From positions 7,643,122 to 7,707,121 of the forward strand of contig NC_087377.1 in NCBI RefSeq assembly GCF_963675165.1: 64,000 nt of DNA, in the 5' to 3' direction. Positions 9,698-62,200 of this stretch are shown here, one piece after another. The translations under genes and the position numbers were made by a program. The stretch comes from Halichondria panicea. Its lineage: Eukaryota; Porifera; Demospongiae; Suberitida; Halichondriidae. Under the pieces are notes generated by a model. It was not told the DNA's origin, did no database searches, and was given only the letters and a program-made list of their open reading frames with translations. Every line of letters begins with the position of its first letter. Position 1 is the first letter of the stretch.

Positions 9698-12600
9698 ATG
9701 ATGGACAAGAGTTTGACAATGTTGACATCTTTCACTTTTCTTTTTATGGCAGGGTCATTCATCATAGCTGTAAAAGGTAAGGCTGTTATGTTACATTGGT
9801 AGTAAATACTGCTGCATACAAAATAATGTTGCCACAATAGAATCTACTATTCTACATGTAGATCGTATACTGAGTTTCGAGTGCCTAATTACTCAATTGC
9901 GAACGACATTGTATAAGCCTGGATACTATTGGGAATTGCACGTGAAGCATACTAATTGTATGCTCCTTGCGAGTCAGATCACTCTTTCATTTGCAACCGC
10001 TATACATAACTATAATTATATGCAGCCAGAGATTGTGACTCATAATTATAGTCCAGCATGTGATGCTCCTCTGCATGCATCAGTACCACCACTATTGGCA
10101 CACTTTTGATCCATTTACAGTTAGTTTCTGCTAGGGTACCTCAGCTTATAGTTTTTGTCGGTGTGTGTGCGAGCCTATACTGAATTATTATCTCCCCAGA
10201 ATCTCTGTACACAAATCAAATTGTGTGCTACCAAATTACTGGTGTGCATTGTACTTTTAAATTACCAATAAACTGCTGAACTACAATAGACCAGTTGCGC
10301 ATAAGGCATGAGGAATTTAATTTACCGTGACGTCACGATTGGCCTGCTCCGGAAAATTCACTTTACTGGCAAATCAATGTAAAAATTGCACTGCATGCAC
10401 TTTTACCAGAGTTCATTGCATCGTAAAGATCTGTTTATCTATTTAAACAACGTACAGCTAGAGAGTAAGAATTTCTACTGCATGTGGAGTTTGAAGTAGC
10501 TCTAGAAAGCAAGTTGAACTGGAGATATAAGCGGAATGAGCTAAATTCTGGAGTAAAGAGATGCCTGTAAAGAGATGCCTGGCAAGACCTGCTGCCTCCG
10601 TTTATAAGATGGGTCCCCAGATCTCTTTGTACTGCTTCTCAGGGAAGAGTAGAAAGTAGTTGGAAGTGTTAGAACGTCCAAGATTCGACTGGGTAGGTTT
10701 CTTTCATCACCAGAAGAAAGTGTCTTTAAAGACTCTCAAAGATGGTTTTACTTTATGTTCTTGAAGTTCTAACACTTCCAACCACTCTATTACATGACTG
10801 TATTATTTTGTTGCTAATTTAGACAGTGATGTCTGATTGACCTGACTTATAATAATGATTATACTCTTGATTTAGTACAGTAACCCATAACGATGTCCTT
10901 CCAATATTTTCTCACAGCTCAGTTCACAGTGCAGCCATTGTCAGTGGAGAGAGCTGAGGGACTGGAGGCAGTGTTCAGGTGTCAGTATCAAGCGGAGGGA
11001 TTGACTGTTACTTATGATTGGGCAATAAACAATACCATACTCGGAGCAGATACAGAAACTGTTAGAGCACGTCCACCTTCATCTCCTGGTGGACCAACCA
11101 CACTGATAGTCTTGGCCACTTCACAGCACAACAACTCTGTTGTTCTGTGCCGTGCTACAATTAGTAATGGTATTGTTTTTGTAAGGTCTGAATTATCGAT
11201 CACAGCCACTCTAACTAATCATGGTGAGTTAGTAACTATATAATGATGTGTATAAGATTTTGTAGGCATTTCCCTGTAGGAACGGACATCACTGACGTTC
11301 TGAATGCTCCAAACACCATTACCGTGATGTGGAATGCTCTACCTCTCACTGAGTACTGTGTGGACATCACCAGGACAACTCTGGACTCGACTGAAACAGC
11401 TGTTCTTGATTCTGTGTGTGGATTCACTAATGAGTACACCTTCACGTACTCCAACTCCATCAGTGTGTGTGACAGATTCTCCTTCACTGTGACTCCTACT
11501 GAAGGAGAGATGAGGGGAACAACCAGTGAACCAGATACTGGGTTCTTTACGAGGGCAGAAGGTGTGTTGTATTGTTACATCCACACTTGTTATTCTTCTA
11601 TTCACAATGTACATGTATATTGCAGGTAGTGGAGAACAACGTCGTATTCGTGAAAATGGAGGGAATAAGTTAGTCGAGTTTGAGAGTCATTGTATAGTAT
11701 AAGAGATGCACATGTAACAAAGCTAACGTTCTCCAGGTACCAAGTTGCACAAGGTTCACTCGGTATCATGTGGACTCTGACTTATTGACTCCCTCCATCA
11801 GCCGTTCAATCACGGACCCTTTGTTTGATGGCTCACTCAGTTTCTCCCTCCCCACTGACAAGATGACAGAATACAGTGTCACACTGACAGATGAGAATAG
11901 AATAGACCTCGTGTTTGAAAATATTCCAATCAGTGAGTCAATCACGTTCATTTGAACAGATAAAAAGGTGTCTCTATCAGGTACATTTGACGTTCAAGAC
12001 CTCCTAGTGTCTGAATGTCCTGGTGGTGGTGGTATTTGTGTGAACATTGTGTATGTTGAAGGTACTGTCTCTCCCGGAGCTCTCGTCTGTGCAGTTCGTA
12101 TTATTGGTGGAGTGTTTGATTTTGCTAAAATGAAACTAGTTACCATCCCTCGGAATTCTATTGAGAATTTCACCATTCCTGTTCCTAGTGGAGAATACCG
12201 AGTGATTACCTTTGATCTGGAGAGCAACCGTTTACCAAACATGCCCATCTCTATGGTAGCTCTCAGTCAAGACATTATGACAGTGAACTCTGGTGGTGAA
12301 GGTACGTGCTCCGTGTGTTATTGCTGTGCTATAATCATAGTCATTTACTATAGACATTACCAGTCCACCACCCAGAGAGGGCATTAGTGCTACCAAGCTA
12401 ACAAATGGGGAGGTTAGTGTGACCTGCTCTGATTCCGCTCGGAATTGTCTAGTCTTGTTTAAATCCACCAGTATTTTGGACAGAGTACTAGTTGGTTTCA
12501 TCAACGCTTCTTCAACCTCAACTGTCCTCTCTTTAAATGACACCTTTGGTGATGGCTATGTGGTGGTGTACTCTTGGAATAGTTCACAGTCCATCTTTAA

Positions 12601-13394
12601 AGGAGAGGTATCGCTCATTATGCAACTGGATCCACCCACCAGTAAGTACCTCTGTAGATTTTCAGAACTAACATAATTATTATTCAATGTTTTTCTATTG
12701 CAGCTGCTCCCACTACATCTCCAACATCTGATCCACAAACAGACCCACCTCCTCCTGATATGGAGTCCCTGCCAACACCAGTTATCGTTGGTAGGTTTCT
12801 AGCGCTGTAAAAGTGTATCATAATGATTCTATCCATTCACTGTCACAGCAGCAGTTATAGCTGGTAAGTCAATACCTACAGAGCACTGACTTTGTATAGC
12901 ATGAGAAACCATCAGTTTTGTAAATATCTATGCCGTTTACTTTGAATGGATTCAGGTTAAGGTACACTCTAAAAGAATGGTTATCATGCACATTTTTAGG
13001 TTTGGTGATTCTGCTATTGCTTGTGGTCACCGCTGTTGGAACTGTCGTTGTGATTTTAAGGAAACGGAAACGAAATGAAGGTACCAAAATCATTTGTCAA
13101 CTTGTCTTGAACAATTGACATGCAGTTGAGGTTCCAGAGTCAGATGGAAGAGTGGATTGGTCATCAACATTTGCAGGGATTGAGCAGCCCAACGAAGCTT
13201 ATGCTTCAGTACTCAAGAGGAACATTGCCTATGAGCAGACAAAGAAACCATGGAGACAGAGGATCGATGACTCACAAGCTCCGGCAGCAACAGAGGGAGT
13301 GTATGAAAGCATTGAGCCAGTTCATGAGTACGAGGATGTGTTGCCTCAGGGAAAAGCAAGTCGTGAAATTATGTTAACATTAACTGAAACTTAG
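9698..13394 (+). CDS. A2: Ig/FN3-like receptor with ITAM-like tail
   Basis: Exons by GT-AG and phase: 9698-9776, 10918-11223, 11280-11561, 11626-11696, 11737-11932, 11981-12301, 12354-12641, 12704-12790, 13000-13080, 13126-13394. They join without a stop to 659 residues. The signal peptide (1-26) has hydrophobic core FTFLFMAGSFIIAV. The Ig domain (27-128) has the C...YDWA...C pattern. The first FN3-like domain (129-222) carries MWNALPLTEYC, and the second is at 223-311. Two related unknown domains follow at 312-418 (EGTVSPGALVC, VTIPRNS) and 419-514 (VTCSDSARNC, YVVVYSWNSS). Next are a Pro/Thr stalk (515-543), a membrane helix (544-565) and RKRKRNE. The tail has YASV, YEQT, then YESI-x5-YEDV, resembling an ITAM but one residue short. 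The fourth exon lacks the donor used in A4 and A8 (9-bp deletion), so 11696 is my in-frame guess. The ligand is unknown; by architecture it is a surface receptor, possibly immune or self-recognition. Confidence 0.78.
12849..12863 (+). other. Possible 15-base cassette micro-exon of A2
   Basis: CAGCAGTTATAGCTG is preceded by CACTGTCACAG and followed by GTAAGT, so it has plausible acceptor and donor sites. Its length is a multiple of three and both ends are phase 1. Including it would add AAVIA between stalk and membrane helix without shifting the frame. A4 keeps the same arrangement at 29580-29594. Whether it is used cannot be told from DNA. Confidence 0.4.
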
Positions 13395-16600: not shown

Positions 16601-17364
16601 CTGTGGCGGCTGACGATGAAACTATGTTTTTGAGTAATGGTGAGTCGACCAGTGTGTCAATCTTGTACATGTACCTTCTTTTGTAGTAATTTATTTTTGG
16701 TTACCATTTCCTCAGAATCTTCCAGTGAACCAAATTCTCCACCTAATTCTGAGGGCATCACTGTCACTAAACTATCAAATGGAAGTGCTGAAGTGACCTG
16801 CACTACCACTGGCCAGAGTTGTCTAGCGTTGTTTCAATCTAAAACCTCTCCAACCTCTCTTGATCCGATGGTGATGATTGGTTTTATTGAATCACCTAAT
16901 GACAGAACCACTGTCACTCTTAATGCCACTTCCGATGTTTATGTGGTAGTGTACACTTGGAACAGTGATTCTGGTGAGACCATCTTTGATGGGAAGGTAT
17001 CCTTCATTAGTCAAGTGGAGCTACCAACTAGTAAGCCCAGAGTTAGTTTCAGTTCAGAATTGTATGCACTCTAGCTTTTGCAGCTCCTCCCCCTACACAA
17101 TCACCTCCTGATACTACTGGATCTCCAGTTCCATCGCCCATGATAGTACTAATAGCAGGTGAATGGTGGCAATTTATGGCTGGCTGCATGTGTACATTGT
17201 ATTTTGTCTGTTATAAAGGTATCATAACCGTGGTCGTGGTACTGCTTCTCCTGATAGTCACCGTAGCTATTGTTGCATGTAGCCGTGGTTATTGTGAAGA
17301 GAAAACAAAGAGGTGATATCAATTAGTTAAATTTTTTCATGTCACTTCTTCTCAACACAGTTGA
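13628..17364 (+). CDS. B3: Ig/FN3-like receptor, frameshifted in membrane exon
   Basis: Exons: 13628-13688 (signal, MDDTSLTFLLFVGTFTIAV), 14750-15028 (Ig, FECLSPGAL ... IWFV ... IQCAA), 15084-15386 (first FN3-like), 15436-15509 and 15559-15742 (second FN3-like), 16325-16639 and 16716-17030 (two unknown domains, EGTISPGALVC and VVVYTWNSD), 17084-17158 (Pro-rich stalk), 17219-17312 (membrane helix), tail from 17361. The ectodomain is intact. The membrane exon is 94 bases, not a multiple of three. Compared with B6 it holds 7 extra bases (GTTGCAT near 17271), so after the helix the frame runs into a TGA at 17362-17364, giving about 567 residues. The proper tail frame continues intact to 17623 with YAPV, YESI-x5-YEDV and a terminal YVNV, but is out of reach unless splicing or the sequence differs. 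It is either a recent tail-less variant or a recent pseudogene. A pogo-type element sits in the intron before 16325. Confidence 0.7.
15770..16296. mobile_element. pogo/Tigger-type MITE in an intron of B3
   Basis: The ends CAGTAGAACCTCAATTATCC and GGATAATTGAAATTCTACTG are terminal inverted repeats of the pogo pattern, flanked by TA on both sides (15768-15769 and 16297-16298). No transposase. A smaller element with TTTCATCTA ends and poly-C/G runs is nested at about 15918-16170. Confidence 0.8.
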
Positions 17365-17623
17365 GGTTCCAGAGTCAGATGGAATAGTGGATTGGTCATC
17401 AACATTTGCAGGAATTGAGCAGCCTAACGAAGCTTATGCTCCAGTACTCAAGAGGAAAATTGCTCATGAGCAGACAAAGAAACCACGGGGACAAAGGGTC
17501 GATGACTCACAAGCCCCGGCAACAACAGAGGGAGAGTATGAAAGCATTGAGCCAGTTCATGAGTATGAGGATGTGTTGCCTCAGGGAAAAGCAAGTCGTG
17601 CAAATTATGTTAACGTTAACTGA
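17361..17623 (+). pseudogene. B3 tail exon, open but out of frame
   Basis: The exon follows a good acceptor (CTCAACACAG). It encodes VPESDGIVDWSST, PNEAYAPVLKR, EYESIEPVHEYEDV and a terminal NYVNVN before TGA. It differs from the A2 tail by only about 20 of 265 bases by eye. It has no lesion of its own, so loss of the frame upstream must be recent, or it is avoided by alternative splicing. The YVNV terminus matches the YxN pattern known to bind Grb2-type SH2 domains. Confidence 0.6.
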
Positions 17624-21730: not shown

Positions 21731-22573
21731 GATCTAGATCGGCATGCACACAATCTTGAATTGTATCCAAAGATAATACTAGACAGTGCACCTGGGATAT
21801 GATGGAGGGTAATACTTAATACATTAAAGGGTGAAGAGGTGGCCTTGTTAGCTTCTTTAATAGTTCTGCAAGACTACGATTGGTAAAGATCACACTAGAT
21901 CTAGAGCCTTAATAGTAGTTCACTAGACATCTAGTGTGATCTTTACCAATCCTATAATTGGCTGTGGCTAGCTGTATTAAATATAAAAGTACTACTGTCG
22001 TACAGTATAGTAAAGGTGAGTGATCTGAAGGGGGGTATGTGGGTGTAGATTGTGTCTAGCTGTTGCCATGCATAGATATGCATATGGCTAGATCTAGTCT
22101 AGTCTAGACTGATCTATCAGGTATTAAGGTACCGTAATTAAACTATGTACCGTATATCTTCTAATTTATCGGACAGTAAAAAATAATTATTTTGGAAATT
22201 GTCCGGGTATAATTGGAACAGATTTTTATAGAGCGTGTCCGGAATAATTAGAACAAGCAAGCAGCTGCATGCGAGCTCAGTGGCGTATCCAGCTAGGGGC
22301 TCAGGGTGCTCAAGCACCCCCCTAAGCTTAACATTAATTACTGCAACTTACTGGATAGCTGGGAGCTGAGCCTGAGCTTGCACTACAGAGCTTAGTCTGG
22401 CCACGCCCTCCCATACTTCGTATATGGTCGGGTGAACTTGCAATGAACAGTTCGTGCAGACACCCCAAGATTTTCTTGGGGTGTGAAACCGCTTGTCAAG
22501 TGCCTTGTGGGCCGTTGTGGCCTGTTGTGTAAACTGTTACGTAAGCTATTGCATCACGAAAAAGTAGCTAGAT

Positions 22574-22882
22574 ATGGGCCTCTACTGCTGTTTGTGTGCG
22601 AATGAGTCTCTGGACAACCGAAGGCGAAAGAAGCTCAATGGTCATAGCTGTTCTGAAGCAAGAGAAGTACTTGTGCAGCTCCTTCCAGTACCTCTGCATT
22701 GCATCCCTGAAACGAGTGCTAGTGACAGTATATTGTGTCACCAGTGCGAGAAACAACTGAAGAATGTCCATGCTCAACAAGAAAAGCTATGCAAGGTAAA
22801 GAAGGAAGCAACAGAGCTAATAAATGGTCTGCTTTCAAGACATGCAGAAGATAACTTAACCACCACCGCCAAAAAGAAGTAG
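22574..22882 (+). CDS. Small cysteine-rich zinc-finger-like protein, element-borne
   Basis: A 102-residue frame starts MGLYCCLCANE. It shows CxxC, then an Arg/Lys-rich DNRRRKKLNGHSC, then a second CHQCEKQL pair and a Lys-rich helical C-terminus (KKEATELINGLL). Two Cys pairs about 50 residues apart would fit a single zinc-binding domain of a nuclear, possibly DNA-binding, protein. A relative with the same DRRRRRKIHGESC pattern lies in another inverted-repeat element at 49545-49970. It may be the first exon of a longer gene; no clear donor or continuation is seen. The family is not identified. Confidence 0.5.
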   Translation: MGLYCCLCANESLDNRRRKKLNGHSCSEAREVLVQLLPVPLHCIPETSASDSILCHQCEKQLKNVHAQQEKLCKVKKEATELINGLLSRHAEDNLTTTAKKK

Positions 22883-23084: not shown

Positions 23085-23705
23085 AATGTTTCTGTTGTAG
23101 AGGTAGCAGTAAGTGCGTGAACACCGACATTGTCTGGAATGAGGCTCCTTAAATCTCCAATCTCGCGACTCGAAAATCATCTCCCCAGGTTTTAACACAA
23201 TGGGCTTCATCAACTACTACTGCAACGAGATTCTTTATATACGGTGGTGACAGAAGCATATTTCGAAAAATACCCTTCGCTAATATGCTCTCTGGGGAGA
23301 TGAACACCAACTGAGCTTCTCCTTTCAGTACTCTGTTAATAGCACTACGGTCTGTCTGAGCTTCTCCAACGTATTCCACTGTCAATCCTCCAGCTGCATA
23401 CTTTTTTTGTTGATCCATCATCAGCGAAGTGAGAGGACTAATACAAAGTACAATGCTTCCAGATGTTCCTGCAAAACAGAAAAAGGCGTATATATAGGTA
23501 CACTCATACAGCAATTTTAGTTCACCTTTCAATTGGTCAAAGGCCATAGGTAATGCAGCAAAGATTACTGACTTTCCATAGCCGGTTGGCAGTGACACAA
23601 ATGTGTCCTTTCCTCCAATGATTGAGCTTTCATTTGCTCTGGCTTTAAATAATGGATCCCAATTGCTCTAGCACTCTCAATTATCACGTCTTGCATCTTT
23701 ATGTG
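23085..23705 (-). pseudogene. RecQ-like DNA helicase fragment
   Basis: On the minus strand the frames contain LPTGYGKSVIF (Walker A / motif I), CISPLTSLMMDQ (motif Ia), VFISPESI and VVVDEAHCVKTWGDDFR (motif II with the DEAHC typical of RecQ, then the W.DFR block). An intron of about 60 bp (near 23470-23528, ending TTTTGCAG) splits motif I from Ia. Frameshifts occur before motif I (near 23645) and just after WGDDFR (near 23160). Motifs III-VI are missing. It is therefore a broken N-terminal half. RecQ-like genes of this sort are multicopy in sponges and cnidarians and often lie in mobile elements; here it is clearly inside one. Confidence 0.8.
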
Positions 23706-35100: not shown

Positions 35101-38100
35101 TGTACATCTAAAGGAGCCAGGGAGTGCCAATCATCTTCTCCCAGTCTCTGACACGCTAAAAAAAAAGGAGCTAGAACTGGGAGTCCCAGCTAGAATTGCT
35201 AGCCTGATCTAGAATGACATGGAGGCGTGGTGAGGCGGGATCCACACTAATCGACCTAAAGACGCTCCTGTTCCAGATTTCACGAATGGCAAGGAAAGGG
35301 ATAAGCGCCTGTTCTATTAGTGATTAGAAGAAACGATAGTTAGATGCATGTGCAAATTTACCTGAATGGACGATAAAACATACACAATTAATGTAGAAGA
35401 GTACTATTAATTTTTTGTTCCTATCAAATTAAGGTATATATAGTGATGTATATAATTATTATACATAATTATATTCAAATTGGCCTTCCTCTCTTCCTAT
35501 AGTACCATACATTTATCATGTACACAGCCCAGCAGTTTACAATTGAGCCCGAGTCAGTGGTACAAGCCGAGGGATTATTGGCAGAGTTTGAGTGCCTGTC
35601 TCCTGGAGCACTAACTCATCCTTGGTTTGTGAATGGCATTGAGTCTACAAGCCCTGACTTCTCATCTGAAATCAAAGTAGCTGGAGGCACTTCAGGTCTT
35701 CCCTCAGTGTTAACTATCCCAGCTAGCTTACAGTTCAACAGCAGTGTCGTTCAGTGTGCAGCCGTTTCAGTGACTGGTGGAGTCTTATCAAGGAATGCAA
35801 CGTTGAAAGTTGGTGAGTAGTGTAATTACTTGCAGAGTGTACATCTTGACACACAGTTGCTTTCAATGAGGTCTTTTTTCTCAGAGCGTGTATCTATTGA
35901 AGTGCTGAATGATGAAACCATTACCGTCTCTGTGACCAATAACTTCACAATAAATATCCTCTCCTATCATGTGGACATCTTTCTCACTACTCTGGGCTCT
36001 AATAAGATGGTTACACTCCCTCCTCTATATGGGATTCAAAATCAAACACAGTTTAATTACGGGCAACCTGATAACCACACTGTCTGTGATATATTCACCT
36101 TCACTGTGACTCCAATTAGCGAGTCAGGAATGGAAGGAAGATCCAGTGAACCAGTAATTTACTTCTTTACAGCAATTAGAGGTTCTGTGAATGTTTTATT
36201 GAACGTTTATGCTTGACAATTACCACAGATAATAACAATGTCACTTCCCTCATCAGTCAGGGAGGAAATGTGTTGACGAAAATAGTACATCTCAGTGGTA
36301 TGGTAAGAGACGTATTGACTGTAGTAAGATACATTTATTCAGTACACCTCTATAGGTACCCAACTGTACCAACTTCACCTCCTACCAAGTGACCTCTGAC
36401 ATATTGGCACCCATCAATAAGACCATCGAAGACCCCCACATGATAAGTTTCTCTCTTCCCACTGACCAGATAATCAACATCTCTGTGACACTTACTTCGA
36501 TCACGGGTGTACGTCTCATATTCAAGGACATGCTAATCAGTAAGTCGTGTTATTCAGTAGTAAGTATTACATGCTGATTTTAACACAGGAACAACTGATG
36601 TTCAAAATTTGATTGTAGACGTTTGCCCTAAAGAAAACTGTGCAAGTATTGAGTATGTTGAAGGTACCCTCTCTCCCGGAGCTCTTCTCTGTGTGATACG
36701 TATCATTGATGGAGAGTTGGATTTTCCAAGCACAAGACTAGTGCCAATTCGACGGAATATGAGTGACAATTTTACCATCCCGGTGACTGTTAGTGGAAAT
36801 TACAGTGTGGTTGCATTTGACCTTGAGAACAACAATTTGAGTGTACCAAGAATCCCCATTTCTATAGCGGCCAACGATGAAACTATATTTTTGCTCAATA
36901 GTAAGTCGGCTATTATATGTCAGTGTTGTACATATATTTTTTTGTGTGCTGTGCCATATCCTCCCAAAAAATTGTACTCGCAGATAATTGGCATTAAAAC
37001 CGCTTGCGAGTAATTGAAAAATTTAATTTCACAACTTGAGCAAGAATTTAATTTAATTAATTTTTAAGCTAAATAGTGAAATCGCAAACAAATCAGGCTA
37101 CCTGTGAAAATATGTCACCTTAAGGTAATTATAAGTAGACAAAAGCAACCTCTCACGAGCGGACCTTCTGGATTCCGGACAGCGGACAATCTTTGTGCAA
37201 AACTTCCTCTTATAACGGACAAACAGAAAATTACACATGTATATTTTATGTCCATATGGTATTATGTTATTGCTATAAATCGTACTGCCATACTGCAAAG
37301 CATGAAAGAATTATGCTTTATATCTTTGATTTTAGCAAGTTTCTTACTTATCGTACTTTTTGAACTAGAATTAGGGTCTAATTATAATTATACATGAATA
37401 CTATCTTGATATGGCAATTTGAATGAACCTTCAAAAAGAGACTAGGACAAACACTCTGCCTCCAAAGTGTCCTTTATTCGGAGGTTCCATATAGTGCTTT
37501 CGCAGGTTGACCTCAAACCTCAAAAATTCTGTCATTTGAATTTCTATCGTCATATAATTATAACAACGCAATTTGTGAACATAATTATTTTTGCTAGATA
37601 GTACTGTGTTAATAAAGTTGTTGGGTTCCCTTTTCCTCAGAATCTTCCACTGAACCAAATTTTCCACCTAATACTAAGGACATCACTGTCACTAAACTAT
37701 CGAATGGGAGTGCTGAAGTAACCTGCACTATCACTGGCCAGAGTTGTCTAGCATTGTTTCAATCTACAAACTCTCCAACCTCTCTTGATCCAATGGTGAT
37801 GATTGGTTTTATTGAACCACCTAATGACAGAACCACTGTCACTCTTGATGCCACTTCCGATATTCATGTGGTAGTGTACACTTGGAACAGTGATTCTAGT
37901 GAGACAATCTTTGATGGGAAGGTATCCTTCATCAGTAAGCCAAGAGTTAGTTTCAGTTTCAAAATTGTATGCGTTCTGTTCTTCCTCTTGCAGGTCCTCT
38001 CCCTACACGAGTACCTGACAGTACAGAGTTTGGATCTCTGCCCATACTAATAGCAGGTGAATGATGCAATTCACGGCTGTCTGTGTATATTTTTGTCTTT

Positions 38101-38447
38101 TAAAAGGTATCATCACTGTGGCTGTGGTACTGCTTCTCCTGGTAGTCATTGTAACTATAGTAGCCGTAGTTATTGTGAAGAGAAAACGAAGCCGTTTTAC
38201 AGAATCAAATGGGAGAGTAGATTGGTCATCAACATTTGCAGGAATTGAGCAGCCCAACGAAGCTTATGCTCCAGTACTTAAGAGGAACATTGCCTATGAG
38301 CAAACAAAGAAACCATGGGGACAGAGGATCGATGACTCACAAGCCCCGGCAACAACAGAGGGAGAGTATGCCAGCATTGAGCCAGTTCATGTGTACGAAG
38401 ATGTGTTGCCTCAGAGAAAAGCAAGTCGTATTAACATTAACTTATAG
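32139..38447 (+). CDS. B6: intact Ig/FN3-like receptor with ITAM-like tail
   Basis: Exons: 32139-32202, 35528-35812, 35885-36181, 36229-36302, 36356-36539, 36589-36900, 37641-37934, 37994-38056, 38107-38447. They join to 637 residues with no lesion, which makes B6 the best type-B model. Signal peptide 1-21; Ig 22-116 (FECLSPGALTHPWFV, VQCAAV); first FN3-like 117-215; second 216-301; unknown domain 1 at 302-405 (EGTLSPGALLC, VPIRRNMS); unknown domain 2 at 406-503 (VTCTITGQSC, VVVYTWNSD); short Pro-rich stalk; helix IITVAVVLLLLVVIVTIVAV; then RKRSR and the tail with YAPV, YEQT, YASI-x5-YEDV. Unlike all its relatives, the membrane helix and tail are in one exon: the intron between them is gone and its place is taken by FTESNG. 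Intron 1 (3.3 kb) and the intron 36901-37640 are swollen by repeats. The ligand and signalling partners are unknown. Confidence 0.85.
32401..32641. repeat. MITE, TACCGTATAGCGGGAAA family
   Basis: TACTGTATAGCGGGAAATTT at the left and AAATTTCCCCGCTATA at the right. It lies in B6 intron 1. A CCACA-type microsatellite follows at 32676-32715. Confidence 0.75.
33116..33897. mobile_element. Inverted-repeat element in B6 intron 1
   Basis: AGAGATACAAAAGAAAGGGG (33120-33139) is matched by CCCCTTTCTTTTGTATCTCT near 33861-33880, and the GATTGGAAACGA / TCGTTTCCAATC block is part of the same pair. No transposase. Related GATTGGAAACG ends occur at about 24730, 40140 and 40600. Confidence 0.65.
34554..34643. 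repeat. Poly-A run and AGT/AGC microsatellite
   Basis: A run of about 20 A (34554-34573) is followed by repeated AGTAGTAGT/AGCAGT (34596-34643). It lies in B6 intron 1. A poly-A followed by trinucleotides may mark the end of an old retroposed sequence, but no body is recognised. Confidence 0.6.
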
Positions 38448-49526: not shown

Positions 49527-50136
49527 TAGTCTCGAATACCCGCCTCAACCTAAAAGCTTGAGTCTGGTCAAACTCACATATGAACTTTGTTCTGCACAGT
49601 CAGCAAAGTCAAGTGGGCTACACGCCCACAAGCATAGTGATAAAGCCACAAGCCACCGCATGTTAGGGACAGAACATACACAGAGGGCTATATCAGACAG
49701 TGTATCAATTAAGGCTAGGAGTTGAAAGCCTACGAGAAAAACACTGAGCTTGAAGCCATCATAGCACAGAGCTAGAGGGCCATGAAACCATGGTCGACGG
49801 TCACATTCACATAAATGAGCATTTAGGCTGTTAATTTCGACAAGGTGTTCCAAAGGTCCTGTTGCTAGTCTGGAGAGTTCTAGTATCACATCCTTACAAC
49901 TCTCTCCATGAATTTTCCTACGTCGCCTTCTGTCAGGAGCTGATTCGTAACAATCCATGCATGCTGCCATGGCGGTTAGCTATAATGATATTCATGTAGA
50001 CTATAATTTTATTCATGTTCCACACCCACTTGTGGTCAATTAAATGTCCAAGAAATTCCTGGACACACTTGAACCAAACCTCAATGTGAGTTTGACCAGA
50101 CTCAAGCTTTTAGGTTGAAGCGGGTATTCGAGACTA
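49527..50136. mobile_element. Mini-element with 50-bp terminal repeats and target duplication
   Basis: The ends TAGTCTCGAATACCCGCCTC and its complement extend for about 50 bp with one or two mismatches. Both sides carry GGTAGATAG (49518-49526 and 50137-50145); the repeat can be read as 9-11 bp. It carries a minus-strand frame with a zinc-finger-like N-terminus. Confidence 0.8.
49545..49970 (-). pseudogene. Zinc-finger-like frame inside the mini-element
   Basis: The 141-codon frame begins MAACMDCYES, with DRRRRRKIHGESCKDV and LCEC. It matches in pattern the N-terminus of the frame at 22574-22882 (CxxC, basic DNRRRKKLNGHSC, LCHQC). After LCECDRR the similarity ends, the second Cys pair is imperfect and the rest reads like unrelated sequence. 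It is therefore probably a captured or residual first exon of an autonomous relative. The function is unknown. Confidence 0.5.
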
Positions 50137-51673: not shown

Positions 51674-54600
51674 ATGGAGGCCCTACAAGTGTTGACTGTC
51701 ATTATCATAGTGCTCACATATCTGATTGTTTCTGGAGAAGGTTTGCAAATACATTTACATAAGGCCATCATTTCCCGCTTGGTAAAAGTGTAAAAGTATG
51801 CCTCTTTGTCTGTCATTATTCAGAGGAGGTACGACACGAGTACCTCGATTAGGCTTGGTCACATGAACAATTACCATATCTACATGTACAAATCATGTAT
51901 GATAACGCTTTCAATCTAAACAGAAGTTATGGCACACAAAGTTAGCCTAGCTTTCAATCCATTCAACAGTGAAGTCTTGTTGCATACATGTGACATTAAC
52001 TCAATTTTAGCCTAATTGAGGTACTCGTGTCGGGCCTCCTCTGGTCATTATTGCTGTAAAGCATTGACACACCCCTTAATTTCTTAATCATAGTTTCTTA
52101 GTCATAATTATGTACGTGCTCTTTTTTGGTTAAGAATTTCAATAACTTAATATTCATTGTTCCCCCCCCCCCCTCATGTCCTTTCCATTTTAATGAGCTA
52201 ATGAATAATGACCAAAGGAATGTACTTTGTCTGGCTTATTAAACATGGGGTTGTTACGGTAAACAGTTTGCTCATGAATATGTTTGAAGTACATACATGA
52301 TAAATATATCATTCTGTATGAGAAGTACAGTGTATCAATCTTCAAAACATCTTTCAGTGGAAGCTCTGAGCGATCATCAAGTTACTAGAAACAACACAAA
52401 CTAGTAGTCATTTTTAACTTCCAAAAACACTTCTAGCTCTGTGTTCTTACTCTTATACGATGCTTTTTACCATTTTGGAGGGCAGCTCGAAGTGTTTTTT
52501 TCTTTCCAAGCCAAGAAACTCTCACAAAAATTAATATGTAGACTAAAATGGTGGTCACAGCCAAGGAAAACATGAGCTTTCAGCAAAATATCTCTTCGAG
52601 CCGCCCTGCATATAGTGAAGCTACAGTAGAACATCTAGTAAAAGTGTCTATTGGAGCAACTACTGCGTTTCAGCTGGACTTTCAGCTCATTCTAGCTGCT
52701 CACGATCACTAGATCTAGCTCAGACATGAATAATTAATGAGCAAACAGTTTACCGTAGCAGGTACTTGAAGTTATAAAGTATTTGTTGCGTGCAGTAATA
52801 ATTATGTGCACACTGGTCACTATTTATGTAGTATTGCAATGATCAACTGTTTGTGTGTTTGTTCTTATTTCTCACAGCTCAGTTCATAGTACAGCCAGTG
52901 TCAGTGGAGAGAGCCGAGGGACTGGAGGCAGTGTTCAGTTGTCAGTATCAAGCTGAGGGATTGACTGTTACTTATGATTGGGCAATAAACAATACCATAC
53001 TCGGAGCAGATACAGCCACTGTTAGAGTACGTCGACCTTCATCTCTTGGTGGACCATCAAGACTGACAATCTTGACCACTCCACAGCACAACAACTCTAT
53101 TGTGTATTGTGAGGCTATAATCAGAAATGGCTCTGATCGTACATTTGTGATTTCATCCACAGCATCTCTAGTTGTTCGTGGTGAGTCAGTAATTATATCT
53201 TGATTGTCTTGGCATAATTTGTCCTTCTTTTATTACAATAGAGACGGTCCTCACTCCGTTTATTGTTGTACCGAATGCCATCACCATGATGTGGAATGCT
53301 CTACCTCTCACTGAGTACTGTGTGGACATCAACACGACAACTCTGGACTTCACTGAAATAGTGGCCCTTGATTCTCTGTGTGGATTCACTAATGAGTACA
53401 TCTTCATGTACTCTGATAACAGTGTGTGTGCCAGATTCACTGTGACTCCTACTGATGGAGAGATGAGGGGAACAACCAGTGAATTATGTACCGGGTTATT
53501 TACGAGAACAGAAGGTGTGTTTATGATATTAATAGTATTACACTTCTATAATATTATTATGCAGGTAGTGGAGAACAACATCGTATTCTTGAAACTAAAA
53601 GGAATAAATTAGTCAAATTTAGGGCAACTGTGAGTGATTCAATTTTAGGGTTAGTGTTAGGGTTAGGGTTAGCTGTTTGTTACGTTGGTAAGAATGCATT
53701 TTTAGTTTGTTGAGTTCTCTCTAACATTTTAGGTTCCAAGTTGTAGAAACTTCACTCGGTATCGTGTGGACTCTGACCTATTGACTCCCTCCATCGATCG
53801 TTCAATCACGACCTCTCTTCTGTTTGATGGCTCACTCAGTTTCTCCCTCCCCACTGACAAGTTGACAGAATACAGTGTCACACTGACTGATGAGAATGAA
53901 ATAGATCTCGTGTTTGAGAACATTTCAATCAGTAAGTCCATCACGTTTATTTTGAGCTGATAAAAATAGTGTCCGTGATAAATATCTCTATCAGGTACTT
54001 TTGACGTTCAAGACGTCCTAGTGTCTGAATGTCCTGGTGGTGGTGGTATTTGTGTGAGCATTGAGTATGTTGAAGGTACTGTCTCTCCCGGAGCTCTCGT
54101 CTGTGTGATACGTGTCGTTAATGAAGTGCTTGGAGAGCTTGACTTTGCTAACATGAAACTGGTTACCATCCCTCGGAATTCAAGTGAAAATTTCACCATT
54201 CCTGTTCCTAGTGGAGAATACCGAGTGATTGCTTTTGATCTGGAGAACAACCATTTACCAAACATGCCCGTCTCTATGGTAGCACTCAGTCAAGACAATA
54301 TGACAGTGAACTCGACTGGTGAAGGTAAGTGCTCCATGTGTTTTTGCTCTGCATTATAGAGACTATAATAAGAATTGTCATTTACTTCACCGTAGACATT
54401 ACCAGTCCACCACCCAGTGAGGGAATTAGTGTATCCAATTTAACGAATGGAGATGTTAGTGTGACCTGTTCTGACTCTGCCCTGAATTGTCTAGTCTTGT
54501 TCCAATCCACCATCTTGGACAGAGTGATTGTCGGTTTCATTAACTCTTCTGAAGTCTCAACTATCCTCTCTTTAAATGACACCTTTGGCTATGTGGTGGT

Positions 54601-54926
54601 GTATTCTTGGAATAGTTCACTGTCCATCTTTGAAGGGAAGGTATCGCTCATTATGCAACTGGATCTACCCACCAGTAAGTGCCTCTGTAGATTATCAGAC
54701 ACTTGGTGATCACTTATTCCGCTTCCTCCTCATTCCTATTGCAGCTGCTCCCACTACACCTCCAACGTCTGATCCACAAACAGGCCCACCTCCTCCTCCT
54801 GATATGGAGTCCCTGCCAACATCAGTTATCGTTGGTAGGTTAAAATGTGTTAGTGCTTTAATATTATCTTTATCCCTTATACCGCCTATATCTTTACCAT
54901 GATATACAGTAGATAATTCAGCTCTT

Positions 54927-54960
<34 letters not shown>

Positions 54961-57900
54961 ATTCAGGCATTATTGTTCCCTTGGTTTTGATAATGATACT
55001 AATGATGGTGATCATTATTATTGTTCTGGGGAAGAAAGTCAAACGAGGCGGCAAGGTGTTTCATTCCAGGTACAATCATTACCAGCAGTATGTGAGAATT
55101 AATGTGGTTGTCATGTGCTGCATCATCTAATTTAAAAGTGTTCAAACCATTTGCTAGCATTCATGCTAATTATGATCTACAAGCAATCTAATTAGAGACA
55201 TTACTGAGTGGGTGCATGGTCACATTAGCGTGATTGAAACTGAAGTAATTAGGGCTGTTTTACAACAATATCTGTTTAACAAGAATCGTGTGTTTACATT
55301 CGTAACTTATAATAATTCTCTTGATTTACAGTAACTCTGAAGGCGGCAGTGTGGTGAGTATTACACTTTATGTTGCAATGATAAACTCTCTGCACGTGTT
55401 TGTGCTGATAATGCACTAATGTGTTTTGATAGCCCCCACACGTAAGAATACTTTCCCAGTTCATAGTGTAGCTTCCTTGTTTAGGAAACGTTTTTATGTT
55501 CACTCATGAGCTAATGCTATATGGTTTCGTATTAGCAACGTCCTGTGTTCATGTTTCAATATCCCCCTCAGTGACAACTATATTTGCCAACATGTAGATA
55601 CTGATTTGTATTAATTTACCGCGTGTGATTTATAGGTACATGTATAGAATCAAGGAGTGTCTACTCTTGATAGATTATGATGTGTGTTTCAAGCCAAAGC
55701 CCTTTCACATGTTGTTGTTTCCACTATCAGGTCCCTGAGGGCCTTGCTTGAATGAGTATGTTTAATGTGTATTGTCTACAGGATGTGGGTGCCTCAATAA
55801 CATCTAAAGTAGCATTTTACGATGTCGCCCGCCCTGAGCACATGTCTCTGGAACGCAACACGGCTGACACTGACGATACACCTCCACCAGGTTATGATGT
55901 CGTGCGTAAAGAGAATTTGCCAAGTCCTGAATATGAAACTGTACCATCGGCTAAGGCAGGCAAGCCTACACCCACCACCAGTGAGAACCCTCCACCCCTT
56001 CCCCCTACCATGCTACGAGGAGACAGTGATGCACCTGATCTACCACCTGCCTACAATCCTGCCGTGGATAACAAGAGTGTTGTTGTTATGTCAGTGGAGA
56101 ACTCTATCAGCCACGGTGTGGAAAATCAGTCAGTAGATGAGGAGGTTGATGAGTCATTGAAGATAGATCTATCAGTCAGCGACACAGAATATGATGGTAC
56201 TACAGAAGAGGCCATTGGTAGTACTGAAGTTCAACCAGATGTTGACCGTGTAGACACAGTTCAATGTGCAGAGAGTGGAGCTGGTAACAATGTTGACCAT
56301 GGTGGACAAGAGGCAATGATCGCTGCGCAGGTGAGGGTACAAGTAAATGTTTTCTGTGACGCTTTCTCCTTTGTCTCTTTTACATGATTGTGGTTTTTTG
56401 TAGCGCGTTTGTATACGTGTATACACACTACAATAATTCAGTACAATCAGTGTTTCATGCAAACATTTGCTAAATGAAATCGTGCGTGACAATATGTGCA
56501 TGCATGGTTACAGCCCATTGAGCAGGATACAGCTGCATGTGTATTATAATACCCTTGTTGAGTTGTTGGCCATGTGTGTTTATGTGTGTTGTGTGTCTTC
56601 ACACAGCATCTGGTGATCCCTAAGTGTGTAAGGAAAAGCACCTGTGGTACATTATTGTACATTATTATAGTGTGTCCAAATAAGCTCATTGGCAGACAAA
56701 TGGACACAAAGCGCTCATTGTTACTTAATGCCAAATATAGTTCTGTCCCGGCCTACCGTACACTGTAGCTCCGTTGCTTCATGCACGTACAATGCTACTT
56801 ACATTGTACTGATTATTACCATTTTTGTGAAGTGCCAGTGGTCTCCTCTGTAAGCACCACAGCATTTTCTAAACCTTCATCTCCTTGTATCATGGGAGGG
56901 GGAAGGAGTAGAGGGTTCTCACTAACGGTGAATGTAGGTTCGCCTGCCTTAGCTAATGGTATAGTTCCAGGGAAGGAAGCTCTACATGTCGGAAGCCTCC
57001 GTGCTTGAATACAATGACATCTTTTATAGTAATAGTAATAATATTAGTGGGAAAGTACATATTACTTGTCTCAGTCTGTGTCCCAATGTCCTCAGGACTG
57101 CGTAATTATAGTAGACAGGAAGTATTTTTACAGTAATTATTAGCACCCCACCCACTCCCACGCAGCACCAGTACACGCTGGTGGTTCCCAAGCCAGCCAG
57201 CAGTGATGCCAAGGTGAAGGACTTATGTACCGTCATTTATTCTGTGGTAGACAAGGAAAAACTCAAACCAGTCATCCCAACACCAGGTACTAGTGCATGT
57301 GTATACAATGAATGCCTTAATTGTGGGACGGTATATATATATACATGCAGTGGAGTCATAACCTGTTCAATTAATAGTGTTTCAGGCAGACATTATTTTT
57401 GGCAAAGGTATCAAGTAGTATACATGTATACTGTAGATACACACTATTATTATTATGGGAGAATAAATTTTGGGGATAGTGCTTACTAGTACTTGACATA
57501 TACGTGTCAGCTAATTCCCTAAGTGGAGACGGTTGACAGTTTCATGTGTGTACATGTAGTGTAAACTCCAAAACTTTGCTGGTAGTTTTCAAAACTAGTT
57601 GGACTACTTTCATCATGAGAGGCCAGATATGTCAATAACTTGTACATGTGTTATGCCTTGTCTTGTAGTTGCCAAAGCACAAGGGCAGTACATTCCGGTA
57701 GAGACCAGGCCAGCCAGCAGTGATACCGAGGTGATGGACTCGACCAAGGTCGTCTATGTCGTGGTGGACAAGGACAAACTGAAACCACTAGATCCGAACG
57801 ACCCACCAGGTAGGTCACTCTTATCCACTCTGAATATACCCTCTGACCTAATTTCTACCTACCTACTTATTCTTTGAAAGTGTTTGTTGTTTTTTAGAGC

Positions 57901-59214
57901 GTCTTTATCACAATGCTCATTCCCTTAATCCCACTTGCCGACTAAACGGAAAATGAATCTCAAAGCCAATCAAGTTTATTGCCTCTCATGCAACAATTAC
58001 TTGAAATTGTTGTTTTGGGTGTTTATAATGTTATTATATCAATATTCCCTACCGCATTCAAGTGTCATCCTTTCAGGGGTGAGAATTTACCTCCACATAT
58101 ACATGTATATAAATTAGGTTTTCTATGCAATATTAGAGGAAATGTTTCTCTTATTCCGTACTTGATTGGCTGTTTACTGTTATAATTGTATTTGTGCATG
58201 TTTTCTTAGAGGACATTTTTCCCTTATTTGGTGCTTTATAGATTCACTGTTGTTCAATTGTAGTATGACCGGTAGTTGTAGTCAATGAAACAACTTTCAT
58301 TGTCTCCCCTCTCCAGCTCTTCCACCACGACGCCCTGTCACTAATACTGAGCTGCACACAGAGAAGACACTAGGTGGGTGGTTAGTATACTTATAGCGGG
58401 TAATTTTCGTGTGGAAAAATATTCGTGGTTGAAGGTCTGCATGACCACGAATATTTTACCCACAAATGAAGCATTTTACCCCTTGAAAATTACCCGCTAC
58501 ATGTATATGGTACTTACACGAAGTAGTTTTTAGAGTGGACACCCCATAAATTATTGTCTTGTTTTCTAATTATGTATTGTACAATGTAAGTCACTTTAAA
58601 CTGTGGGAAATTAAATGTTGGCACTGTCGTTCGTCAAGTGGTAGTTAATACAATGTCATGATTGGTTCCACATTACACTAATTCCCAAGAGTTCATGCAA
58701 TGCAGGTGTATCATGATTGTGTGTACAAGTGTAATATTGACTTGTGACTCTAAGAAACACATGTATACAGATAGCAGATTTCTGAATAACTGGCTATACA
58801 TAATAAATCTGTATAGTGCCAAAATACATGGGCTTGTTTCCATCAATATGCCAATAATTATGTCCATTGGAATTCATTCTCCCTCCAGCCCTTCCACCAC
58901 GACAACGCCCCCCACCACCACCGCCCACCCACGAGACGCTCATGGATCTGTTACACCCCGTTGTTAAAAAGTGGGAGGATATCGCCAAAGCACTGAACAT
59001 TGACGAGGACAGAGTGGATGAAATCTTCACTAATAATGAGAATGAATATCTCCGGCTATACGAACTAATGGAGTATTATTTTACAAACGTCCATTGCAGT
59101 CACTCTTGGGAGGAGATGGTGCGAGTGCTGACAGAGATAGGGGAGCATGGTTTGGCTGAGAGAATAAAAGCAGATAAAATACAAGGTGTGTGTGTTTGGT
59201 ACTCGTTAGAATGA
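51674..59214 (+). CDS. A8: Ig/FN3-like receptor with Pro-rich tyrosine tail and Death domain
   Basis: Exons: 51674-51740, 52878-53180, 53242-53514, 53565-53629, 53733-53931, 53995-54324, 54396-54674, 54745-54834, 54967-55069, 55332-55353, 55782-56330, 57166-57286, 57669-57809, 58317-58373, 58889-59214. They join in frame to 974 residues. Signal peptide 1-22; Ig 23-123; FN3-like 124-302; two unknown domains 303-505; Pro-rich stalk to 535; membrane helix about 536-559; KKVKRGGK. The tail has a YDVV-x9-YETV pair (Tyr about 615 and 628), PPPLPP, a PPAY motif, then two repeat exons with VIYSVVDKEKLKP and VVYVVVDKDKLKP (ITIM-like V-x-Y-x-x-V). Two LPPR exons follow, then a Death domain (about 884-960) with WEDIAKALNI and SWEEMVRVL. 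It should couple ligand binding to kinase/phosphatase SH2 partners and to Death-domain adaptors at the plasma membrane. The last exon could end at 59185 (AAG/GTGTGT) and splice on. Confidence 0.82.
51821..52043. mobile_element. MITE with 9-bp target duplication, CAGAGGAGGT family
   Basis: The ends CAGAGGAGGTACGACACGAG and CTCGTGTCGGGCCTCCTCTG are inverted repeats of about 35 bp. GTCATTATT lies on both sides (51812-51820 and 52044-52052). It lies in intron 1 of A8 and is a short relative of 1181-1945. Confidence 0.85.
53646..53676. repeat. Interstitial telomere-like TTAGGG repeats
   Basis: Four near-perfect TTAGGG units in a short A8 intron. TTAGGG is the usual metazoan telomere unit, so this supports an animal source. 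Confidence 0.75.
54930..54958. repeat. CT microsatellite next to the A8 membrane exon acceptor
   Basis: About thirteen CT units end in CCCTATTCAG, directly before the membrane exon at 54967. It doubles as the polypyrimidine tract, so its length could influence inclusion of the membrane exon. Confidence 0.7.
56850..56980 (-). pseudogene. Antisense partial copy of the A8 Pro-rich tail exon
   Basis: The reverse complement of this intron segment matches A8 exon bases of about 55930-56030. It encodes an open stretch TIPLAKAGEPTFTVSENP, then LLLPPPM, parallel to TVPSAKAGKPTPTTSENP, then PPLPPTM. It lies between the exons ending at 56330 and starting at 57166, on the opposite strand. No good splice sites in the minus direction were confirmed. 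It is probably a relic of an inverted duplication; it could also pair with the sense exon in the same pre-mRNA. Confidence 0.65.
58388..58510. repeat. MITE related to the TATAGCGGGAAA family
   Basis: TATAGCGGGTAATTTTCGTG and GAAAATTACCCGCTACA are inverted repeats around ATATTCGTGG / CCACGAATAT. It lies in the A8 intron before the Death exon. Confidence 0.8.
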
Positions 59215-62200
59215 GTGGCATTGCATTCTTGTCAATGATTGCTCATAACTTGCCCCATTTACACCCAGCACCAATGTATTTAAGGGGTGAATCCCTTTAA
59301 CCTTCAGTGTAAATTCTCCCAAGTGATACGAATTGTAGCTTGCGTGCAGTTGTAAGAGTTCTGTTTTCGTTGTGTGGTAAACACGTGTCTATACTACCCC
59401 ACAATGCAAGCATTCCAGTTTACACAAAAACAACGTACAGCTTACACAAGAACCAAGAACACCGTACAGCTAAAATAATAATCAAGTGTATATCATACAG
59501 CTTACACAAGAACAACGCACAGCTAAAATAATGTGCATTGATATACATGTAGCCTGAGAACGAGTGTTGTACATGTATGAAGTATACATGCAGGCACAGG
59601 CCCCGAGGGCAAGCTGCCTGTATTAATAGCACAAGGATTCGCATGCTATATATACATGGGACTGTGTGACTTTTTTTACACACTTGTTGATGTATGGTTA
59701 TTTGATGATACGATGCACTGCAATATCGCATGTGGTCTCGTGTAATAATTATTGGTGATGTAATGTCCGAGGGCTAATTATTGTACTCGTGCCAATAACT
59801 AATACTAGCAGTGTGTCAAGAAGAGCTCCACCATTGAATTGAGCCATTGCATTCGTATTTGTATTCTGTATTCTACCTATACTACCATATTGTGCGAGGT
59901 ACTTAACTTTCATGGAATTATCTACAAAACATACATTTCGCTCTATACGTTATGTCAATGCACGTTGCATGCGTCAGTGTTTGTGGAGGACCCTTGAAAA
60001 CAACACGCTATATGGTATACGTGTATAAATTATACTACTTGAAGTCAATTACTATCAAGAGTTCATTAGGAATCCTAATGACCTAATGAACTCTTAATAC
60101 TATGTCTCTACAATATGTGTGCTAAATTTGCCATTGCGTGACTGTATGGAGTGTACAGATTTATAATACATTGTTTGCTGTATTCATGCATGCAGGTGGT
60201 GAGGTGCTCCACCCGGTGTCTTCAGTAGTATAAGTGTTTGACTATAAATAATGTTAACAACTTCATTTATGCCATTTTCCTGCCATTATAATTATTATCA
60301 TAATAATATAATTAATAATCATAATGTAAGCACCTTATCCTAGATTAGTATTCTTTTTGTGATTTACTGAACATAGCGTGCACTCCTCTTGATAACGTAT
60401 TGATTGCTACATTGAAATTTTTATCAATAGTTTTCTGACTCTTTGTGTTGTATTGAAAACTGTATAGTGTATGCTCATAAATCGATTCGGTATAATCGTT
60501 AATTATTTAAAGAATTTTCACGCCCAGTAAACAATGTTAATATAATTATTCACTATGTAAGAATTATAGTACCACACCCAGTATGCGAATGCATTAATTA
60601 TTACATTACGCAGCAGTCATATTTATTGGGCTGTGGCTGATGTACATCTTAAAACCATTAATTGAACAGAAATTCTCTGCACAAGATCGATGTTTGCTGT
60701 ATCACAAGGATTGTGATACCCTCCCTCCCATGAAAATGCGAAAACCTATTTTGGCTTTATTGCACACAAATGCAGGACACCCGCCTGGCAATTAATTATA
60801 TACACGACTTCATGAACGGGACTAACCAACCACGCCCATTCACCTGGTTGTTGAACGGTTAAATATGTTGACACAATAATATTATGGCAACAAATATACT
60901 TAAGTTAATGGAGCGTTGTTTTCCCACAGAATGATGTCTATAGCCTCCTACGTAGTATGTCTTAAATCAGAAGCTAAAGTGGGCATGGAGATAATTAACA
61001 AGTAGCTAGCATGACAATAATTATTGTGTATATAGCATATATATAGTCATACACATGCAGTCCCTTCGGTGTTATTGATTAAGCTATAGGGTAACGTTGT
61101 TGTGACATAAAACAATTAATATTATCATATACAGTGCATGGAACCCCTCTACGTATAATGGACACCTTTGGGGAACAATGTTTTGGCCTTTATACAGAGG
61201 TGGCCTTTGTTAAGAGGTTGTTTTGTACATAAACTATTCATTTGGGACCTGGGTGCCTGGCCGTTATACAGTATAGCAACTGGCCTTTATTCAGAGGTGG
61301 TTGTTAACAGAGGTTCCACTGTACATATACATGCAGTGCATATCCAGATTAATTTGTGAGTTGTACTGAATGTATCTCTCATAGTAGGTGAATGAATTAT
61401 AAGCTAACAACAATAATTATACAAAAGTTGTTATATTGGGAAACCATTTAATTAGGTGAATGGGCCGGGGACGGTGATGAGTCACTTCAGGCAACAGATT
61501 GCGAACAGTTTGCCGTAGAGATCAAAGAATTTTTTAAAGATTTATCATTTCTTTGTTATTCTAAACCACACTACACTGGCAGCTGAGTTTAGTGAACTGA
61601 TCAGACATGCAGTCACCCTGCTTTTACAATAAAGTCCAAGAACGTATCCATTTTAATTTCCAAATGACTCTATTTCGATGATTTCCCCTCCTTTTCCTAG
61701 TGTCGTAACCAGTAAACAGTAAAACAGAGCTAATAGCAAACAGTATTAATTGTATGCAACGAAGGTGATGTTCAGAGGGGTCGAACCACACTGAACATCT
61801 GTGTAGAACACCTCATGATCGATCAGTTGCTTGCAGGCAATTTGTTTTGTATAATTATAAGGCGACAAATTGCCTGAAAGTTCCCTGGTCTATGGTGTAT
61901 TAGTCATTATGCAACTAGCTATATAGGCTCTGATAAATTATGCTCGAAAAATTTTTTAGCATAATAGGTGTCTAAAGAATAATTGGGCATTAATGTTCAT
62001 TTTTGGTAAAGATCATTACATTAAGTTTTGCATAACATGGCAAAAAATGCATATCATATGCATGGATCAGTTCAGGTCAAGTCAGCAAGATAACACTGAG
62101 AATCATAAATTATTATTAATGTCTTGTGTCAGTTGTGTGCTGTGTTTATAATTATAATTATGTCTATATAATTATACGTCTTAATTTCGTCTATAATGTT

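Follow-up and report, generated by a model that had tools for sequence, protein, structure and literature searches.

A gene in a 64,000-nucleotide stretch of the Halichondria panicea genome (contig NC_087377.1, positions 7,643,122 to 7,707,121 of the forward strand, or C1:7643122-7707121; hereafter the window) joins, on one predicted polypeptide, an immunoglobulin (Ig) exon, a membrane helix, a tail with repeated tyrosine motifs, two of which resemble the immunoreceptor tyrosine-based inhibitory motif (ITIM), and a Death domain. The analysis confirms this fused receptor as real and conserved, and it is somewhat surprising. We read it, with a probability of roughly 0.6, as a receptor for recognition whose Death-domain output would be tuned by phosphotyrosine and SH2 proteins.

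Exon structure and linkage of the membrane helix to the Death domain

The rebuilt gene has 15 exons between window positions 51674 and 60233, which form a single open frame of 956 amino acids (aa) with GT-AG at all inner junctions (Table 1). In order, they encode a signal peptide, the Ig domain, four ectodomain modules (F1-F4), a Pro/Thr stalk, the membrane helix, a 22-base micro-exon, four tail exons (T1-T4), the Death domain and a last exon ending in SSVV. A first-pass annotation had given the interval 54967-59214, which runs only from the membrane exon to the Death exon. Its start is indeed that of the transmembrane exon, with the gene beginning further upstream, but its end did not hold. 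In the likeliest model, a donor after 59185 closes the Death exon, which is then spliced to one more exon, at 60196-60233. We rejected an end at 59214, which would be read-through into the intron, because the paralogs L016 and L015 both keep the donor, and L016 has an in-frame last exon further on; the reading past the donor is not conserved (in L016, VFGTR and then a stop). The F1 donor, GGT/gtgttt, is weak, but L016 needs the same choice. One scan of the paralog loci found a similar signal-peptide exon in L017, L019 and L018 and none in L016, L020 or L022, and an exact pattern for the micro-exon motif found no counterpart in L018.

That the membrane exon and the Death exon lie on one chain, as had been proposed, is supported by three paralogs. 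In L016 (C1:7297600-7307200) the frame stays open from the Ig exon through to the final exon, GGEVLHKLSSVV, with the same order and phases as in the window gene and one extra T1-like exon. In L018 (C8:4529600-4539200) the Ig, F1-F4, membrane, T1, T3 and Death exons follow in the same order at 36-51% identity, and T2 and T4 were not found. L022 (C1:6341500-6348500), whose Death exon is 36-38% identical, has seven exons from membrane helix to Death domain that join in phase. A fourth paralog, L015, keeps tail and Death exons with a degenerate T2; its T3, T4 and last exon were not found (nor was a last exon in L018), the Ig exon next upstream is only 42% identical, and its ectodomain may be of another type. 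Finally, siblings that lack the Death domain share with the Death exon its acceptor and 17 aligned codons, 14 of the 17 residues being identical, which shows that this exon is read together with the tail.

Death domain

The Death domain claimed in the first-pass annotation was borne out by Pfam and by structure prediction, both suggested beforehand as checks. The segment at window 58888-59214 matches PF00531 with E 1.8e-7 and 31.6 bits (cut-off 22.6), the whole 956-aa model with E 9.8e-6 and 26.1 bits, and the paralogs L018 and L022 with 28.6 and 24.7 bits. AlphaFold, given seven paralog rows of the Death exon, predicts five helices with a mean predicted local distance difference test (pLDDT) score of 68, and the first 31 Foldseek rows for this model are all Death domains, at weak E values. 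VIA-align places it on FADD with Z 12.7 and a root-mean-square deviation of 1.9 over 89 residues, and on RIPK1, TNFR1 and UNC5H2 with Z 11.7, 11.4 and 8.5, scores to be read in the knowledge that helical bundles can reach Z of about 13 through their common arrangement; we take the assignment as safe because a profile match accompanies the fold alignment. When the Death alignment was searched against PDB sequences, 11 weak matches emerged, the best two to a knotted chimera (E 0.004) and a designed knot (E 0.009), followed by the Death-domain chains of THO1, RIPK1 and ankyrin-2 (E 0.014-0.84) and by FapF (0.43). At least 148 Death-exon matches were found in the genome, so a Death domain alone is unremarkable here.

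Tyrosine motifs of the tail

All of the motifs listed in the first-pass annotation (YDVV-x9-YETV, PPAY and two copies of V-x-Y-x-x-V) are present in the 956-aa model. The tail contains nine tyrosines, six of them with valine at +3. The YDVV-x9-YETV pair comprises Tyr 594 and 607; PPAY contains Tyr 647, and the tyrosine of a second PPxY, PPGY, is that of YDVV. The two V-x-Y-x-x-V sites, VIYSVV (Tyr 764) and VVYVVV (Tyr 809), fit the ITIM consensus [S/I/V/L]-x-Y-x-x-[I/V/L], and further motifs are YDVA, YTLV and YIPV. Against 100,000 shuffles of the 321-aa tail, YxxV is strongly over-represented (6 seen, 1.09 expected, P 0.00016), as are PPxY (2, P 0.008) and V-x-Y-x-x-V (2, P 0.0065). The same shuffles gave no significance for the wider ITIM pattern [VILS]xYxx[VIL] (2, P 0.08) or for one YxxV/I/L pair at a spacing of 6-12 (P 0.054), and the SH3-type pattern PxxPx[RK] is no more frequent than by chance (P 0.39).

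The case for the motifs rests on their conservation. YDVV and YETV are kept in 7/7 aligned T1 rows, the YDVA tyrosine in 6/7 and PPxY in 6/7 (L018 has PAPY). VxYxxV is kept in 6/6 rows of T2 and in 6/6 rows of T3, the T2 rows leaving out L021, with a partial T2 that reads VSYSEL (L at +3), and L018, in which T2 was not found. Between the T1 exons of the window gene and L018, 14/20 YxxX positions are identical, as against 39/111 other positions (Fisher P 0.0056). The L018 tail adds YDVI and YDVL further upstream and has one ITIM-like motif, VVYAQV; the tail exons of L022 are its own, with YDVD, YENV, PPSY, YDVA and two ITIM-like motifs, VVYADL and VVYALI. The consensus of the immunoreceptor tyrosine-based activation motif (ITAM) is YxxI/L-x(6-12)-YxxI/L. 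We rejected an ITAM reading of YDVV-x9-YETV: by its sequence the pair is ITAM-like merely in outline, with V instead of I/L at +3. We take the last-exon C terminus to be a possible PDZ ligand, and the SH3 and WW ligand readings are likewise our presumption.

Ectodomain

As had been claimed, the ectodomain is shared with neighbouring genes of the window, the Ig exon being 71% and 76% identical to exons at 10884 and 27602. The exon is predicted to fold as an Ig beta-sandwich with two core cysteines and a tryptophan: the best of five AlphaFold models has a pLDDT of 93 and matches PD-1, CRIg and NCAM in Foldseek (E 4.7e-5 to 9.5e-5), and the core residues C22, W35 and C78 are invariant in 12 aligned rows. 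No Pfam family was listed for F1, F2 or F4 at E up to 10. Two hits below their cut-offs were not used, DUF1091 for F3 (E 0.2) and TMEM154 for the whole model (E 0.0018, 18.6 bits, cut-off 30.3). In the 956-aa model, Pfam listed no TSP1, ZU5 or UPA domain at E up to 1, and at the same limit no cysteine-rich TNFR repeats, the hallmark of the Death receptors of the TNF receptor superfamily. Five exons searched against NCBIfam had no match.

Table 1. Exons of the rebuilt receptor gene, in window coordinates
Exon	Position	Strand	Basis
1, signal peptide MEALQVLTVIIIVLTYLIVSGE	51674..51740	+	Hydrophobic ATG exon, phase-1 donor, joins in frame
2, Ig domain	52878..53180	+	Pfam Ig_3 18.8 bits (below cut-off), predicted fold, Foldseek
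3, ectodomain module F1	53242..53516	+	Homologous exons in L016, L017, L018, L019, L020, L022
4, ectodomain module F2	53733..53931	+	Paralog comparison, gene model
5, ectodomain module F3	53995..54324	+	Paralog comparison, gene model
6, ectodomain module F4	54396..54674	+	Paralog comparison, gene model
7, Pro/Thr stalk	54745..54834	+	Gene model
8, transmembrane helix and basic stop-transfer	54967..55069	+	Homologous exons in L016, L017, L018, L019, L020
9, 22-base micro-exon	55332..55353	+	Same motif in L016, L017, L019
10 (T1), YDVA, PPGYDVV-x9-YETV, PPPLPP, PPAY	55782..56330	+	Gene model, motif scan, paralog rows
11 (T2), YTLV and ITIM-like VIYSVV	57166..57286	+	VxYxxV in 6/6 aligned rows
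12 (T3), YIPV and ITIM-like VVYVVV; phase 1-1	57669..57809	+	VxYxxV in 6/6 aligned rows
13 (T4), PPALPPRRP, possible SH3 ligand; phase 1-1	58317..58373	+	Gene model, paralog rows
14, Death domain; 297 bases, phase 1-1	58889..59185	+	PF00531, structure alignment, dN/dS
15, C terminus GGEVLHPVSSVV and stop	60196..60233	+	In-frame counterpart GGEVLHKLSSVV in L016

Gene cluster and tail endings

Searches of the genome (131 Mb, 39 contigs) gave 93 matches to the Ig exon, 26 to the long-tail exon T1 and 73 to the short-tail exon of the siblings, of which 51 lie in C1:6.91-7.75 Mb, 19 in C1:3.44-3.70 Mb and 3 elsewhere, some with stops or split. By these counts, the usual member of the family is short-tailed, with YESI/YEDV-type motifs of its own, and the Death-tailed form is a minority. 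In the window, sibling short-tail exons at 13119-13391, 17327-17620 and 38061-38444 carry YESI-x5-YEDV or, for example, YASI-x5-YEDV, with more tyrosine motifs. The arrangement fits the pattern of clustered Ig-type receptors with tyrosine-motif tails that marks allorecognition receptor complexes of the FcoR and Alr type.

We compared the 3' ends of 13 long-tail genes, 11 on C1 (the window gene, L015, L016, L017, L019, L020 with L025, L021, L026, L027, L028 and L029) and two on C8 (L018 and L030). This count is made without L022, without long-tail matches at C1:7236478, C1:9272555-9272810, C8:4509008 and 4523328 (two of them with stops), and without a Death match at C1:7747856 (four stops) and three weak ones. 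The Death frame is open in four genes (window, L015, L016 and L018). In five (L017, L019, L025, L026 and L027) it is replaced by an ending ...HETSLITV or ...HQTSLITV, followed by a stop in all five; these Death-less siblings have the same tail and belong to the same cluster of about 0.8 Mb. The Death exon is damaged in three more, L021 (T4 interrupted by a stop, normal donor lacking) and L029 and L030 (frame breaks), and no last exon was found in L028. T4, which contains the PPRRP motif, is present in two copies in L017, L019, L025, L026, L027 and L028 and in one copy in the window gene, L016, L021 and L029, its copy number tracking the type of ending. Just downstream of the Death-tailed paralog L015, a 420-aa open frame (L015:7599-8858) consists of near-identical tandem repeats and is minisatellite-like.

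Selection and exon homogenisation

Ratios of replacement to silent substitution rates (dN/dS) are given for those pairs whose first member is the window gene or L016, with stop codons skipped; dS is saturated for T1 against L018 and for T3 between the window gene and L018. With the window gene, the Death exon gives 0.15 (L016), 0.20 (L015), 0.18 (L021) and 0.24 (L018), values indicating that it is under purifying selection. The Ig exon gives 0.64, 0.90, 1.07 and 0.99 within the cluster and 0.40 to L018 and appears less constrained than the Death exon, at borderline strength. Among the other exons, F3 ranges over 0.13-0.69, T2 over 0.14-0.78 and T1, in nine cluster pairs, over 0.46-0.80 with the window gene and 0.69-0.97 with L016; T3 ranges over 0.26-0.74, except for window-L017 (1.82) and window-L021 (1.71), with one or two silent changes each.

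When the window gene is compared with L016, silent change is greater in the Death exon (about 20/64 sites) than in T1 (11/127; Fisher P 0.00013, silent changes here and below being rounded to whole numbers), and the T1 exon of the window gene is nearer to that of the Death-less L017 (91%) than to that of L016 (87%). These two observations suggest that homogenisation acts on tail exons throughout the cluster, in Death-bearing and Death-less genes alike, while the ends stay separate.

Other open frames in the window

Open frames at 22568-22879 (+) and 49548-49979 (-) have a similar start (RRR-K-HG-SC by eye) and may be a duplicated family lying between receptors. A further frame, at 23152-23667 (-), contains the helicase-like motifs PLTSLMMDQ and DEAHC and may be RecQ-like.

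Relation to known receptors

PECAM-1 and CEACAM1 are Ig receptors with two tail motifs of the V/I-x-Y-x-x-V/L type, and in this they resemble the window gene; to our knowledge neither has a Death domain. DcR2, a decoy receptor for TRAIL whose Death domain is truncated and which has a Death receptor as its sibling, is comparable to the five Death-less siblings described here, but has a TNFR-type ectodomain and, as far as we know, no ITIM-like motifs. UNC5 carries a UPA domain. We rejected orthology with UNC5 on the Pfam result for ZU5, UPA and TSP1 given above.

The first-pass annotation had called it unusual to couple tyrosine motifs and a Death domain on one Ig receptor, since vertebrates mostly separate these functions. 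This is only partly upheld, because the combination of Ig, Death domain and phosphotyrosine on one chain is already known from UNC5, which is tyrosine-phosphorylated and recruits SHP2 (PMC6080411). The window gene shares with UNC5 an Ig ectodomain, one membrane helix and a Death domain. UNC5 also has TSP1 and ZU5 domains (PMC6080411), whereas here a docking tail of repeated YxxV and ITIM-like motifs takes the place of such domains, in a large tandem family. What is new is the ITIM-like pair together with a Death domain in one tail, inside a cluster with Death-less siblings. Among the papers listed in literature searches, none, as far as titles and abstract openings show, was on an Ig receptor combining ITIM-like motifs with a Death domain on a single chain. 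The literature covered included a review of the Ig superfamily (PMC11999971).

In cluster organisation, the closest parallels by description, not by sequence, are the Botryllus fester co-receptors (FcoR), with clustered Ig-type receptors, ITIMs, hemITAMs and Y-x-x-I/L/V core motifs, and the Hydractinia alr locus, for which such tyrosine motifs are reported; the portion of the source that describes them mentions no Death domain (PMC12065747). Sponge genes are known in which Ig is joined on a single chain to a domain for immune signalling: Ig-TIR receptors and a Dysidea avara gene that combines Ig with CARD (PMC6208332), as well as Dysidea Ig-TIR (PMC12909245). These have TIR or CARD in place of Death, and the passages on them describe no tyrosine-motif tail.

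Candidate partners, mechanism and alternative explanations

Genes for candidate partners of such a receptor, encoding proteins that it might bind, are present in the genome. An SHP2-type gene has SH2, SH2 and tyrosine phosphatase matches in order (C3:8404573-8406287), a FADD-like locus has a partial DED match followed, some 0.45 kb on, by a partial Death match (C7:1623085-1623814), and two loci have two DED matches followed by a caspase match (C10:859830-862894 and C10:2921362-2923384). Elsewhere, C4:0.04-2.6 Mb holds roughly 100 tyrosine-phosphatase (PF00102) exon matches among the 176 matches listed, a very large phosphatase array.

The gene model, the motifs, the Death fold, their conservation, the partner genes and the Death-less siblings are features of the sequence, and a mechanism can be proposed around them. 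The product would be a single-chain, type I recognition receptor at the cell surface. The Ig domain and four modules would lie outside, followed by one membrane helix and by a long docking tail with the Death domain at its end. Contact with a ligand may cluster the receptor, upon which a Src-family kinase could phosphorylate both the YxxV and the V-x-Y-x-x-V sites; SHP2-like and other tandem-SH2 proteins might then bind them, and PPxY might recruit WW-domain ubiquitin ligases and so control turnover. The Death domain would nucleate a Death adaptor, FADD-like or of the MyD88/IRAK type, leading to a caspase or NF-kB output, with the phosphotyrosine part setting the threshold for that output on the same chain. 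Death-less siblings could compete or inhibit, like truncated decoy receptors.

Alternatively, the Death domain may be an adhesion or guidance scaffold, as in UNC5, ankyrin and p75NTR, rather than serve cell death or immunity, with tyrosines that regulate adhesion as in PECAM-1 and CEACAM1, whose tails have very similar YSEV motifs. The Death domains of ankyrin, p75NTR and UNC5H2 align with ours too (Z 11.9 down to 8.2), and UNC5 is itself an Ig and Death receptor under SHP2 regulation (PMC6080411). However, a large family of tandem genes whose Ig exon is less constrained suits recognition better than guidance, and the ZU5, UPA and TSP1 domains are missing from the Pfam matches; we therefore consider a scaffold unlikely, though it deserves serious attention. 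A different objection is that the Death exon might be a separate downstream gene or an alternative exon and that the membrane receptor normally ends elsewhere. The comparison rests on DNA, in five siblings the tail does stop short of the Death domain, and the length and phases of the exon would allow it to be skipped in frame. We rejected a separate downstream gene on the exon phases and on the siblings with the same exon start, and given the recurrence of order and phases in L016, the in-phase join in L022 and the codons that the siblings share, this objection as a whole is very improbable. That the tyrosine motifs arose by chance in a disordered tail rich in Val and Pro could be argued from the non-significant P values of the wider ITIM pattern and the YxxV pair, but is scarcely credible in view of the YxxV count, of the VxYxxV sites kept in 6/6 T2 and 6/6 T3 rows, and of the ITIM-like motifs that recur in the diverged L018 and in L022.

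Several observations weigh against a recognition receptor with a tuned Death output. The Ig exon lies under the Ig profile threshold (18.8 bits against a cut-off of 30) and its other four AlphaFold models are poor (pLDDT 53-63); the Death model is middling, with a best Foldseek E of 0.015. The damaged Death exons of L021, L029 and L030 imply that Death output is easily lost. With L016 as first member, the Death exon shows weaker constraint than in the window pairs (0.35, 0.54 and 0.28), and the Ig ratios within the cluster are lower than those of the window gene (0.62, 0.54 and 0.63; 0.30 to L018). The contrast in replacement-to-silent changes between Ig and Death exons is borderline for window-L016 (Fisher P 0.051), and the T1 ratios together with the two T3 pairs above 1 indicate that much of the tail is weakly constrained.

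Implications

We further entertain, as a doubtful extension, that the cluster is a self/non-self complex in which an ITIM-like brake and a Death effector share one chain and Death-less siblings act as tuned decoys, so that tolerance and cell death would be decided within one family. Whatever its role, the gene is concrete and testable: ITIM-like phosphotyrosine motifs are fused to a Death domain, and natural Death-less controls adjoin it. It offers a handle on how a recognition cluster of the invertebrate type might convert contact into tolerance or cell death, a role in allorecognition being hypothetical. If the proposal is true and the animal is early-branching, this logic of immune receptors would predate the separate ITIM and Death receptors or be independent of them.

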